Assembly: GCA_955652915.1 (NCBI GenBank)
Contig: CATPCJ010000051.1
Location: 1-39,645, forward strand
DNA length: 39,645 nt
From: an uncultured Bryobacteraceae bacterium
Lineage (GTDB): Bacteria; Acidobacteriota; Terriglobia; Bryobacterales; Bryobacteraceae
Direction of reading: 5' to 3'
Shown here: positions 14,148-16,667 of the stretch, piece by piece
Layout of the letters: each line of letters starts with the position of its first letter
Numbering within the stretch: the first letter of the stretch is position 1
The notes under the pieces: generated by a model
Database searches by the model: none
The model's input: the letters and a program-made list of their open reading frames with translations, nothing else
Told to the model about the DNA's origin: nothing
Translations under genes and position numbers: made by a program

Positions 14148-14155
14148 CCTTTTTG
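14148..14155. repeat. Target-site duplication, left copy
   Basis: The octamer cctttttg directly abuts the left inverted repeat and is repeated exactly at 16660-16667 next to the right one. An 8-bp duplication is usual for IS1 and IS1595 relatives and shows that this copy inserted as a unit. Confidence 0.92.
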
Positions 14156-14172
14156 GGTAGTGTCCTAATTTG
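14156..14172 (+). repeat. Left terminal inverted repeat
   Basis: GGTAGTGTCCTAATTTG is the exact complement of 16643-16659. The GGT start matches the usual IS1-family tip. Confidence 0.95.
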
Positions 14173-14175
14173 CCT

Positions 14176-14199
14176 GCTAGTGCTCCTGCTAGTGCTCCT
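14176..14199. repeat. Subterminal tandem 12-mer, two copies
   Basis: GCTAGTGCTCCT is repeated twice in tandem just inside the left inverted repeat and beyond the passenger gene stop. No matching array was seen at the right end. It could be a transposase accessory site or simple slippage. Confidence 0.6.
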
Positions 14200-14209
14200 G
14201 GCAGGGTGC

Positions 14210-15259
14210 CTACTGGGATATTGTGCCAAAAACCACGGATGGGCCAAACCGCAATCTTTGTATGGGAACGTCCTCGCCCAGTTTGATAACAAAAGACAGG
14301 TTGGGGTGCGCCGGATCGGATCTGCTGAGATCGTAAAGAATGCCGGTATAGTAGGGGGCCTGTGGATACTCTCCGAATGGTGGTCTGTAAGCGACGCATG
14401 CAATTACGTAGATAAAAAGCCCGCCCCCGCCGGGGGCGCTGTTTTCCGCCATGTCCCTTGGGGTCAAGTTAAGGCCATTCAGCATAGGCATCACCTCTCC
14501 AGGGAAAACTGTCTCGCCAAGTGCAGGGCCGCGCTTGATAAGTTCACTGCACAATCGCCTTCTTTCGGCGACTGGGTTCTTCTTCAAGCTAAGCGTATAG
14601 AGTTCCGGCTCAAGAAATACGCCGACAGCGGGAGACTTCCCGCTGTTCTTGACGGTGAATTGAAATGTGACGCGAGCGCCGTCTGCGCCAAACGTGAATG
14701 GACTGGCAATACTGGCTTCCAGCGACAACCAAGGTCGCTCAGATACCTCAGTGTGTTTTTGCATCGCCGCAAGCTGGCCAATGCTGGCCTTCAAAGAGTT
14801 TTTGTTTTGCTCAATGGTAGTATTCAGCGCCATGTCGTTCTGAGCGAGAGCCTTAGCAAGCGACTCTCGGTTATCCTTAAGGGCTGCGGCCAGAGCCTGC
14901 TTATATTGTTCGATAGCGGTTGTCGTGTTGGTTGCAATCGAGCCAGTTTTCTCAACGAGTCTGTCGGTCTGGACGGAGCCGCTTTTCATCTCTTGCAACT
15001 GCCCGCTCATTACGCCCAATTGCTTCCAAAATATCACCCCGGTAATCGCGGCTACCGTTACGCCAAGAATAGTGAGACTGATCATCCATCCCTCAAAGAT
15101 GGAAAATCTTCTCTCCAGGTTTTGTTGGGCGGATTGGGGTGGTTTGTGTTCGGCTCCGTGCTGTTCTCTTACGGGTTCGTCCGAAGCTATCGCAGGTGGA
15201 GTGGGATCGGGTTGCTGTGGAGCATTCTGGCCATTGGGGGCCTGTGTTGTCTCATCCAT
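14210..15259 (-). CDS. Passenger gene: membrane-anchored coiled-coil protein of unknown function
   Basis: A 349-aa protein inside the transposable element, divergent from the transposase. A proline/glutamine-rich N-terminus (about 50 residues) precedes one transmembrane helix (GWMISLTILGVTVAAITGVIFW). A coiled coil of about 110 residues follows (QLQEMKSGSVQTDRLVEKTG onward). The C-terminal domain begins SERPWLSLEASI and contains VTFQFTVKNSGKSPAVGV, an immunoglobulin-like beta pattern. This architecture is common in unannotated membrane proteins of soil bacteria, and I cannot assign a function. ATG 15259 is used instead of the upstream TTG 15283. No ribosome binding site is visible, but TACAAT lies 12 bp upstream, so a near-leaderless transcript is possible. 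The opposite strand is also open but codes for nothing recognisable. Confidence 0.75.
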   Translation of the reverse strand: MDETTQAPNGQNAPQQPDPTPPAIASDEPVREQHGAEHKPPQSAQQNLERRFSIFEGWMISLTILGVTVAAITGVIFWKQLGVMSGQLQEMKSGSVQTDRLVEKTGSIATNTTTAIEQYKQALAAALKDNRESLAKALAQNDMALNTTIEQNKNSLKASIGQLAAMQKHTEVSERPWLSLEASIASPFTFGADGARVTFQFTVKNSGKSPAVGVFLEPELYTLSLKKNPVAERRRLCSELIKRGPALGETVFPGEVMPMLNGLNLTPRDMAENSAPGGGGLFIYVIACVAYRPPFGEYPQAPYYTGILYDLSRSDPAHPNLSFVIKLGEDVPIQRLRFGPSVVFGTISQ

Positions 15260-15269
15260 GGCGGCGATG

Positions 15270-15327
15270 TTATTGTAACACAAAAACTACTTGACATACC
15301 TTAGTTATTGTATTACACTTATTGTAT
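15270..15327. promoter_or_regulatory. Divergent element promoter with three TTATTGTA boxes
   Basis: The gap between passenger gene and transposase contains TTATTGTA three times, at 15270-15277, 15305-15312 and 15319-15326. On the plus strand TTGACA (15291-15296), a 17-bp spacer and TACACT (15314-15319) would place the transcript start at or next to ATG 15326, a leaderless message. On the minus strand TGTTACAAT, an extended -10, overlaps the first box. The boxes cover both promoters, as operator sites would. The ribbon-helix-helix protein encoded at the element's right end is a candidate ligand; that link is inference. Confidence 0.55.
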
Positions 15328-16162
15328 GGCGAACGTACTCAGCACCGACAAGCAGACCGTGATCATCGGGTCGCTGTGTGAAGGTTCCAGCATCCGCTCT
15401 ATCGAGCGAATCACAGGCGTTCACCGAGATACGATCATGCGGCTGGGCGTGCGGGTAGGCCAGGGATGCACAGCACTCCTGGACGCCAAGATGCGTAACC
15501 TGGATTGTCACCGTCTAGAAATGGACGAAATATGGGGATTTGTGGGGAAGAAAGAACGCCACATGCGGCCCGGTGACGATCCGACGTTCGGAAATGTTTG
15601 GACGTTTTGCGCCATTGATGCCGATACGAAGCTGGTACCGGCCTTTCGGGTTAGCGGTGATCGTGACGTGAAAACCGCAACGGCGTTTGTACTCGACGTG
15701 GCTGATCGTATGAAGAATCGGCTGCAAATCTCTACCGATGGTCTGAGCGCTTACGTGGAAGCTATTGACTGGGCTTTTGGTGGCAATGTGGACTACGGCC
15801 AAATCATCAAAACCTACGGAACCGAGGAATCCGTAGAGGCGCAGCGCCGGTACAGTGCGCCCAAGATCAGTTCTATCGAGAAGAAAGCCATATACGGGCG
15901 TCCCGACTTCGATCTGATCTCCACGAGCTACGTAGAGCGGTTGAATGGCACCACGCGGCTGCACATGAAACGGCTTGCGCGTCTAACGTATGCGTTCAGC
16001 AAAAAGCGCGAGAACTTTGAAGCAGCGGTTGGGCTGCATTTCGCGTACTACAACCTCGTGAAGCGTCACAGCACGCTGCGCTGCACTCCGGCTATGGCCG
16101 CTGGTGTTGAGAAGTCCTTTTGGACGGTAGATGAATTGGTAGGGGCAGCGATGGCAGCATGA
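15326..16162 (+). CDS. IS1-like DDE transposase
   Basis: A 278-aa transposase in a single frame, unlike classical IS1, which needs a frameshift between insA and insB. Residues 8-45 form a helix-turn-helix (IRSIERITGVHRDTIMRLG) like the InsA DNA-binding part, without an obvious zinc finger. The catalytic triad is Asp67 (EMDEIWGFV), Asp138 (ISTDGLSAYV) and Glu204 (SYVERLNGTTR). The C-terminal NFEAAVGLHFAYYNLVKRH is the family's closing helix. It cuts and joins the element ends. ATG 15326 has no ribosome binding site, but the predicted promoter places the transcript start there; an in-frame TTG at 15308 is less likely. The stop overlaps the next gene as ATGA. Confidence 0.92.
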   Translation: MANVLSTDKQTVIIGSLCEGSSIRSIERITGVHRDTIMRLGVRVGQGCTALLDAKMRNLDCHRLEMDEIWGFVGKKERHMRPGDDPTFGNVWTFCAIDADTKLVPAFRVSGDRDVKTATAFVLDVADRMKNRLQISTDGLSAYVEAIDWAFGGNVDYGQIIKTYGTEESVEAQRRYSAPKISSIEKKAIYGRPDFDLISTSYVERLNGTTRLHMKRLARLTYAFSKKRENFEAAVGLHFAYYNLVKRHSTLRCTPAMAAGVEKSFWTVDELVGAAMAA

Positions 16163-16470
16163 CCTACATCGAGGAACTACGCGACGTGATTCGACGATTA
16201 CATGGGGCAGAAGCTACGCACATCAAAAGCGTTCCCGTGAAAGAGACGTACCAAGGAAAGACAGTGTGGGAAGGGATTGTAGAAGTGTTCGAGCTACGTG
16301 GGCATCCTACAGCGTCCAGGCTCTACGCATGGGCGCACGAGACGGATAACCAGGATAAACCACGGCGGCATGTGACGGTGCTGCACAGCCACCCAATTAC
16401 CTCACCCGTGCTTGCAGTGCGGGCAGCAATCGTACAGGAGTTTAGAAGCCTTGAGCCAGCCGAAAGCTAG
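16159..16470 (+). CDS. Small element-encoded protein of unknown function
   Basis: A 103-aa soluble protein whose ATG overlaps the transposase TGA (ATGA), so it is probably translationally coupled. The sequence (IEELRDVIRRLHGAEATHIKSVP, then TVWEGIVEVFELRGHPTASRLYAWAHE) suggests a small alpha/beta fold with conserved-looking aromatic and histidine residues (HVTVLHSHPITSPV). I do not recognise the family. Its coupling suggests an accessory role in transposition or control. The C-terminal end overlaps the start of the next small gene. Confidence 0.75.
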   Translation: MTYIEELRDVIRRLHGAEATHIKSVPVKETYQGKTVWEGIVEVFELRGHPTASRLYAWAHETDNQDKPRRHVTVLHSHPITSPVLAVRAAIVQEFRSLEPAES

Positions 16471-16636
16471 AAAAGTCGGGCGTCCGAAAATGGCGAAGGG
16501 CGACGCCAAAGCCCGCATTGTGCCGGTACGCTTCAACCCCGATTTGATGAAGCGCGTAACGGGCGCGGCGAAGGCCAGCAAGCAGACTCTATCGGAATGG
16601 ATCAGGAGCACGTTGAATGCCGCAACCACGGGATGA
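16451..16636 (+). CDS. Ribbon-helix-helix-like small DNA-binding protein
   Basis: A 61-aa basic protein from TTG 16451, or 48 aa from ATG 16490. GRPK, an AT-hook-like tetrapeptide, is followed by the strand ARIVPVRFNP and two helices (DLMKRVTGAAK and TLSEWIRSTLN), the ribbon-helix-helix pattern of Arc/CopG-type repressors. TTG 16451 is preferred because AGGAG lies 10 bp upstream and the GRPK lead-in is common in this fold. The gene ends 6 bp before the right inverted repeat. It is a plausible repressor of the transposase/passenger promoters through the TTATTGTA boxes; this is inference. Confidence 0.72.
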   Translation: MSQPKARKVGRPKMAKGDAKARIVPVRFNPDLMKRVTGAAKASKQTLSEWIRSTLNAATTG

Positions 16637-16642
16637 AAAGAT

Positions 16643-16659
16643 CAAATTAGGACACTACC
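16643..16659 (-). repeat. Right terminal inverted repeat
   Basis: CAAATTAGGACACTACC is the exact complement of 14156-14172. Confidence 0.95.
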
Positions 16660-16667
16660 CCTTTTTG
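16660..16667. repeat. Target-site duplication, right copy
   Basis: The octamer cctttttg is identical to 14148-14155 and directly flanks the right inverted repeat. Confidence 0.92.

Follow-up and report, generated by a model that had tools for sequence, protein, structure and literature searches.

A cargo-carrying IS1-like transposon with a candidate ribbon-helix-helix repressor, and its relatives with constant ends

IS1 is regarded as a minimal transposon: classically, two frames joined by a frameshift make up an element under 1.2 kb, and the ISfinder size range for one IS1 subgroup reaches about 4.6 kb. Cargo-carrying insertion sequences and cassettes are already known as concepts. The transporter IS (tIS), in which passenger genes lie between IS ends together with the transposase of the IS itself, is cited for IS1595 and other families in PMC3129680 and PMC7986276. 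Mobile insertion cassettes (MICs) and MITEs have the ends and target duplications of a full element and no transposase. Tn7-like carriers of defence genes (PMC8649781) transport a changing set of accessory genes. Ribbon-helix-helix (RHH) repressors such as Arc, MetJ and CopG, as well as RHH antitoxins, are proteins of about 60 aa with an N-terminal DNA-contacting strand and a negative-feedback layout.

The element described here shares features with all of these systems. It resembles the IS1 family (PF03400) in having a DDE transposase that scores above the family cut-off, ends starting with GG and an 8-bp target duplication, whereas the one-frame branch to which it belongs measures 2.2–4.5 kb, carries cargo, accessory and RHH genes and lacks the N-terminal zinc finger that the transposases of L048 and L029 appear to have. 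As in a tIS, passenger genes accompany the transposase of the IS inside its ends; however, the branch is IS1-like, its regulatory operon is conserved and its slot is recurrently refilled. Relatives with the same ends and 8-bp duplications but no transposase correspond to MICs (324–1838 bp) and MITEs (about 210 bp), although a HicA-type toxin, a VOC protein and an Mrr-like nuclease are among the proteins that the cassettes encode. Unlike the Tn7-like carriers, whose changing accessory gene set it recalls, the element has one small DDE transposase, one or few cargo genes and no targeting machinery. It differs from described RHH systems in that predicted operator arms lie over both −10 boxes of divergent promoters inside a transposon, and in that many natural specificity variants occur within one transposon group. 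What is new, as far as the alignments indicate, is this arrangement of overlapping divergent promoters whose predicted −10 boxes sit in repeat arms covarying with the RHH strand. We consider it probable (about 0.8) that the locus is an intact IS1-like "transporter" transposon with RHH feedback on both promoters, refillable slots and derivatives mobilized in trans.

The window, i.e., the whole stretch of DNA analysed, is a 39,645-base contig (C51) of a 7.09-Mb genome in 506 contigs. The element occupies 14,156–16,659 (2504 bp), and its limits and genes are as follows.

14148..14155: target duplication, left copy, CCTTTTTG; exact match to 16660–16667
14156..14172, plus strand: left inverted repeat, GGTAGTGTCCTAATTTG; the same 17 bp, with up to a few mismatches, ends 30 delimited elements
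14210..15259, minus strand: cargo gene, 349 aa, ATG start; homologues inside the same ends in relatives
15326..16162, plus strand: IS1-like one-frame DDE transposase, 278 aa; DDE_Tnp_IS1 domain (PF03400), 30.8 bits against a cut-off of 24.1
16159..16470, plus strand: accessory protein gene, 103 aa; conserved in relatives
16451..16636, plus strand: RHH gene, 61 aa, DNA-contacting strand IVPVRF; best start TTG at 16451
16643..16659, minus strand: right inverted repeat, perfect 17-bp partner of the left repeat
16660..16667: target duplication, right copy, CCTTTTTG; 8 bp, identical to the left copy

The terminal repeats are perfect over 17 bp; counting the ambiguous outer G/C would make this 18 bp. 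An inverted repeat of at least 12 bp combined with an exact 8-bp duplication is present in the window and in none of 20 shuffles in which dinucleotide blocks were permuted; the window was counted as seven overlapping 12-mer seeds, the number expected from a single 18-bp repeat. An artefact of metagenome assembly was ruled out, as numerous assemblies, among them that of an isolate, show the same ends, operon and arrangement of cargo, and relatives with cargo were found on plasmids whose records give them as complete. An empty site for the window copy was not found, the right flank not being conserved in relatives. Likewise, no exact empty site could be shown for the copy on contig C15 of the same genome, where a neighbouring gene is kept in four genomes of the same genus and the sequence downstream of it is unalignable.

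The transposase is encoded in a single frame with no frameshift, and its DDE residues D67, D138 and E204 lie within the motifs DEIWGF, STDG and YVERLN at a spacing of D-x70-D-x65-E. Both a target duplication of 8–9 bp and ends starting with GG, by which IS1 elements are recognized, are present, while one frame in 2504 bp departs from the classical layout. The NCBIfam equivalog for IS1 family transposases (NF033558) matches at 56.8 bits, below its cut-off of 100, and we therefore call the element IS1-like. The profile PF12762 (DDE_Tnp_IS1595) does not match the transposase of the window; it does match those of L157 and L165.

The transposase, accessory and RHH genes form a plus-strand operon, from which the cargo gene diverges on the minus strand. 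The accessory gene shares 4 bp (ATGA) with the end of the transposase gene and, to judge from this overlap, is translationally coupled to it; the RHH gene overlaps the accessory gene by about 20 bp, and its stop at 16,636 falls 6 bp short of the right inverted repeat. Conservation in relatives indicates that all three non-transposase genes are real genes beyond mere open frames. An upstream TTG start proposed for the cargo gene by the ORF finder falls within the predicted promoter and was discarded in favour of the ATG, and long plus-strand frames over the left slot were discarded as antisense to the conserved minus-strand gene. An earlier note, made from the bare sequence, had described these ends and a one-frame DDE transposase accompanied by a membrane-anchored coiled-coil protein, a small protein coupled to the transposase stop and an RHH protein ending next to the right end, and each of these elements of its description was borne out.

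The accessory protein is 55–75% identical across 20 relatives and has a fairly confident predicted alpha-beta4-alpha fold, for which a fold search returned nothing above noise and no clear match. No toxin profile matched it, and no toxin was found for it in the PDB by sequence. It occurs alone, without the RHH gene, in two genomes, and thus need not serve transposition. At L111, L117 and L118, it is found with neither transposase nor RHH gene, as a possible case of domestication or as relics.

Of 399 genomes of the same class, 50 contain an exact match to the 17-bp end (89 places listed), and a control with the reversed pattern gave no occurrence. Searching for relatives by the end, the transposase and the accessory protein, we delimited 31 two-ended elements with 8-bp duplications, allowing at most one mismatch in the duplication; 30 are distinct, since identical contig and element lengths indicate that one Terracidiphilus contig was counted twice. 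Target duplications vary between the delimited elements. Transposase, accessory and RHH genes are present in all 18 full-length two-ended elements (the transposase frame is broken in L049, and its start is unreadable in L047), and 15 full-length elements enclose cargo between the ends and 8-bp duplications. Passengers accordingly lie within IS ends and would move as a unit with them, as the tIS concept has it. Only one element with exact ends and a transposase comes from a named isolate, Terracidiphilus gabretensis, the rest including metagenome bins. Outside the class, exact ends were found at L188, with the same three-gene operon, and at L190, with an 8-bp duplication and no RHH gene found; at L189, the operon and one end were seen. 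The order of L190 (3878–6664) is rearranged, with the accessory gene on the opposite strand at the left end.

Derivatives without a transposase are part of the same family. Mobile insertion cassettes with the same ends and a duplicated target were found at L032, L126, L127, L134, L140 and L143, whereas the window copy carries its own transposase and is in this sense autonomous. A MITE family of about 210 bp includes two identical 210-bp copies that sit at two sites of one genome, each flanked by its own duplication, which suggests mobility in trans. The RHH gene persists in four derivatives (L116, L119, L120 and L123) whose transposase gene is gone and whose small gene is incomplete.

The cargo protein of the window, which we refer to as type A, has a disordered N-terminus, one membrane helix, a long coiled coil and a C-terminal beta-sandwich domain with an N-x-G-x-x-P-A motif; its predicted structure places helices at residues 44–92 and 98–174 and strands at 178–325. 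A divergent type A gene, likewise coding for a membrane helix, coiled coil and C-terminal beta domain, fills the left arm of most full-length elements. An unrelated membrane/coiled-coil family (type B) takes this place in L042, L047 and L107; L106 holds a third kind of protein in sense orientation, the only non-divergent slot among the full-length relatives, and the left slot of L041 and L108 contains a degraded gene. A second slot, between the transposase and accessory genes, is occupied in L044, L046, L105, L108, L110 and L112. Between elements, transposases are 59–86% identical (median 72%), while the median is 59% for accessory proteins, 52% for RHH proteins and 18% for type A cargo (maximum 29%). 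L042 and L046 have transposases that are 85% identical and cargo of unrelated families. Where these ends enclose no transposase, L126, L143 and L032, the last from the genome of the window itself, carry type A cargo, L134 carries a HicA-type toxin with a DUF1902 partner, L127 and L136 of two genomes carry a VOC protein (L136 without a detected duplication), L137 carries an Mrr-like protein (no duplication found), and others carry small membrane proteins. L032 (C15, 18,474–19,620, duplication GAAAATCG) retains a cargo gene together with the last part of the RHH gene and therefore looks like a deletion derivative of a window-like element. The VOC/bleomycin-resistance-like genes of L127 (2702–3160) and L136 (3056–3511) are near-identical and form 459- and 456-bp cassettes, bounded by the same 17-bp ends, in genomes that belong to different families.

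Homologues of type A cargo occur in 53 of 200 genomes of the class, some of them outside these ends, so that this element is not the only carrier of the family. Type A cargo also lies in three transposons that have different ends and IS1595-like transposases (a Pfam check covered two of these transposases), and the family seems, from this distribution, to move between IS families. These are L157 (1440–3445), L160 (1335–3494) and L165 (1348–3442), all with 8-bp duplications. Searches against PADLOC, Pfam, PHROG and the PDB gave no match for the window's cargo protein, and a fold search with its model gave only weak immunoglobulin-like beta-sandwich matches (best E 0.02).

More distant relatives extend the branch. 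The window's genome contains further transposases, about 40–49% identical, in elements that carry cargo between GGTAGTG ends and are flanked by 8-bp duplications: one on C1 (2498 bp), one on C452 with an XRE regulator (3052 bp) and one on C374 with an MqsA-like antitoxin (4481 bp), in addition to a 1334-bp copy on C473 whose transposase is broken. Plasmids of cultured Acidiphilium, Methylocapsa, Mesorhizobium and Hoeflea, all alphaproteobacteria, carry relatives that are 43–45% identical with similar ends, 8-bp duplications being present in three of the four. Their cargo comprises an SDH-type protease, PD-Lambda-2_B-like proteins and a full pair of RosmerTA, a phage-defence toxin-antitoxin system (PMC10440598). 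The latter, with both RmrA and RmrT, lies in the IS1-like element of the Hoeflea plasmid (L178, 2561–6784). As far as sampled, carrying cargo is the habit of the one-frame IS1-like branch. The premise of the earlier note that IS1 relatives are normally cargo-free consequently fails for this branch: every full-length element examined carries cargo, if degraded in L041 and L108, and so do the four plasmid elements. Its description of a cargo element holds, as the rule of the branch and not as an oddity of the window copy. Copies with different target duplications and with cargo exchanged between constant ends, which it had named as support, are now on record, and no copy with closer ends that exclude the cargo was found. 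In its refuting case, cargo homologues would always reside elsewhere; some do, including those on IS1595-like transposons, and others lie inside these ends.

Alignment of the regions upstream of 22 transposase genes revealed the following predicted elements between the cargo and transposase genes.

15272..15277, minus strand: predicted −10 box of the cargo promoter, TACAAT; TACAxT here in 21 of 21 elements with a left arm
15274..15282, plus strand: predicted operator left arm, TGTAACACA, from alignment and covariation
15291..15296, plus strand: predicted −35 box of the transposase operon, TTGACA; TTGAC[AT] in 21 of 22 and a 17-bp spacer in 21 of 22 elements
15309..15317, plus strand: predicted operator right arm, TGTATTACA, overlapping the −10 box; from alignment and covariation
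15314..15319, plus strand: predicted −10 box of the transposase operon, TACACT, from the alignment

The exceptions to the pattern of TTGAC[AT], 17-bp spacer and TACAxT are L049 and, at one base, L112. The two promoters overlap, and both −10 boxes sit within the arms of an inverted repeat, TGTA...CA / TG...TACA, whose arms in the window are the sole copies of their sequences within 39.6 kb. The left arm is absent from L106, with its sense-oriented cargo. In most elements, the cargo start lies 12–47 nt from its TACAxT box, close enough for leaderless messages.

The arms vary together with the DNA-contacting strand of the RHH protein. Arms of the TGGG(G/A)TACA type go with the strand L-R-[VI]-R in 8 of 8 elements and those of the TGTA[AT]TAC type with V-P-V-R in 10 of 10, while four single arm classes each have a strand of their own, the third residue being Q in two of them, A in another and V in the last. 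The correspondence is consistent in all 22 elements (mutual information 1.77 bits, reached in none of 20,000 permutations, in a test that ignores relatedness and with arm classes grouped by eye). The transposase tree requires seven changes of arm class, and the match of operator and strand therefore arose several times; since the tree offers only four independent, well-supported contrasts, all four agreeing, a tree-aware test cannot reach significance (sign test, p = 0.125). Two elements from outside the class that were read after the rule had been noted fit it: L189 combines IVPVR with TGTAACACA/TGTATTACA, and L188 combines LQSR with GTAGTACA, as in L042. Aligned via the conserved arginine, the third strand position corresponds to Asn11 of Arc, which is a base-contacting residue. 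An arginine at this position pairs with a G-run in the arms, as chemistry predicts. Profile matches of the RHH protein are all sub-threshold (NikA-like, HicB, RHH_10 and YlcI/YnfO, with RelB weak). At the level of sequence, the covariation supports a role of the RHH protein in repressing the two promoters as their dedicated regulator, and the guess of the earlier note that it is a candidate repressor is strengthened by the 22 elements and the two read later.

We propose that the element works as follows. The transposase would act on the 17-bp ends and yield 8-bp target duplications. It would be made with the 103-aa and RHH proteins from one overlapping operon, the cargo being read in the opposite direction from the overlapping promoter. 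As the last product of the operon, the RHH protein most likely binds the two-armed operator and covers both −10 boxes, so that its occupancy would repress transposition and cargo expression jointly by negative feedback, as the covariation suggests. The segment from the left end to the operator arm and the transposase/accessory junction both serve as slots, other genes having been observed in each. Deleted derivatives and cassettes keep cargo without a transposase and would be movable in trans, as their duplications and the identical 210-bp pair imply. Most likely, host or element gains some accessory trait from the cargo; in the window, this might, as a guess by analogy with the cargo of the more distant relatives, be defence-like.

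Other readings account for parts of these data. The element could be an ordinary tIS, an IS1-type element with acquired passenger genes and nothing more. The tIS and MIC concepts have been published (PMC3129680, PMC7986276); a fixed operon, a matched RHH/operator pair and a recurrent slot, however, exceed a chance passenger, and no prior paper on this group was found in a search that covered few subscription papers and lay outside ISfinder (ISMhu11 likewise yielded no paper). We regard this reading as rather unlikely. That the cargo is a vertically inherited, very fast-evolving part of the element and has never been exchanged would suit the prevalence of the type A architecture in the same place and orientation in most left slots. 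It is quite improbable in view of the unrelated cargo of L042 and L046 beside such similar transposases, the sense-oriented third kind in L106, the HicA-type, VOC and Mrr-like cassettes between nearly identical ends, and the type A cargo on IS1595-like transposons.

Two further alternatives concern the small genes. If the accessory and RHH proteins were a toxin-antitoxin pair stabilizing the element, with promoter control merely antitoxin-style, one would understand why the genes are small and overlapping with an antitoxin-like RHH gene last, why the RHH gene is kept, as if still needed, in the four transposase-less derivatives, and why HicB and RelB profiles match weakly. Yet the small protein has neither a toxin-family match nor a clear fold match, and its presence without the RHH gene in two genomes is unexpected for a toxin; we consider such a pair improbable. 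That the RHH protein is no repressor but assists transposition, by binding the ends or by shaping the complex, seems very improbable: its gene adjoins the right end, and plasmid-mobilization proteins NikA/MobA are among its nearest named relatives, below cut-off, but the ends stay constant while the RHH strand varies and tracks the promoter arms instead. The preferred reading thus remains a transporter transposon under the feedback of its own RHH repressor.

A bolder extension, which we put forward tentatively and with the odds somewhat against it, is that this IS1-like lineage is a regulated cassette carrier, in which an operator-retuning RHH protein silences cargo and transposase without cross-repression and the slot is refilled from a pool shared with IS1595. 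If so, operator specificity would be retuned element by element, co-resident elements in one cell would avoid repressing one another, and the pool of membrane, toxin-antitoxin and defence genes would be common to IS1595-type transposons. The usual annotation of such loci is "IS1 family transposase" beside hypothetical proteins. Cargo being the rule in this IS1-like branch, and the payload between its constant ends changing and in other members comprising known phage-defence genes, these small elements are a place to seek new defence genes. The 24 natural RHH/operator pairs hint at which residue matches which base change, so that a specificity rule for RHH repressors is open to direct testing.

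Two minor observations concern the surroundings and margins of the cargo genes. A RelE/ParE-like toxin gene, recognized by eye (L032, 4640–4963), adjoins the C15 cargo element. At the left ends of L032, L040, L046 and L050, the cargo stop is a TAG within the inverted repeat (CAAATTAG), and the gene thus enters the transposon end.
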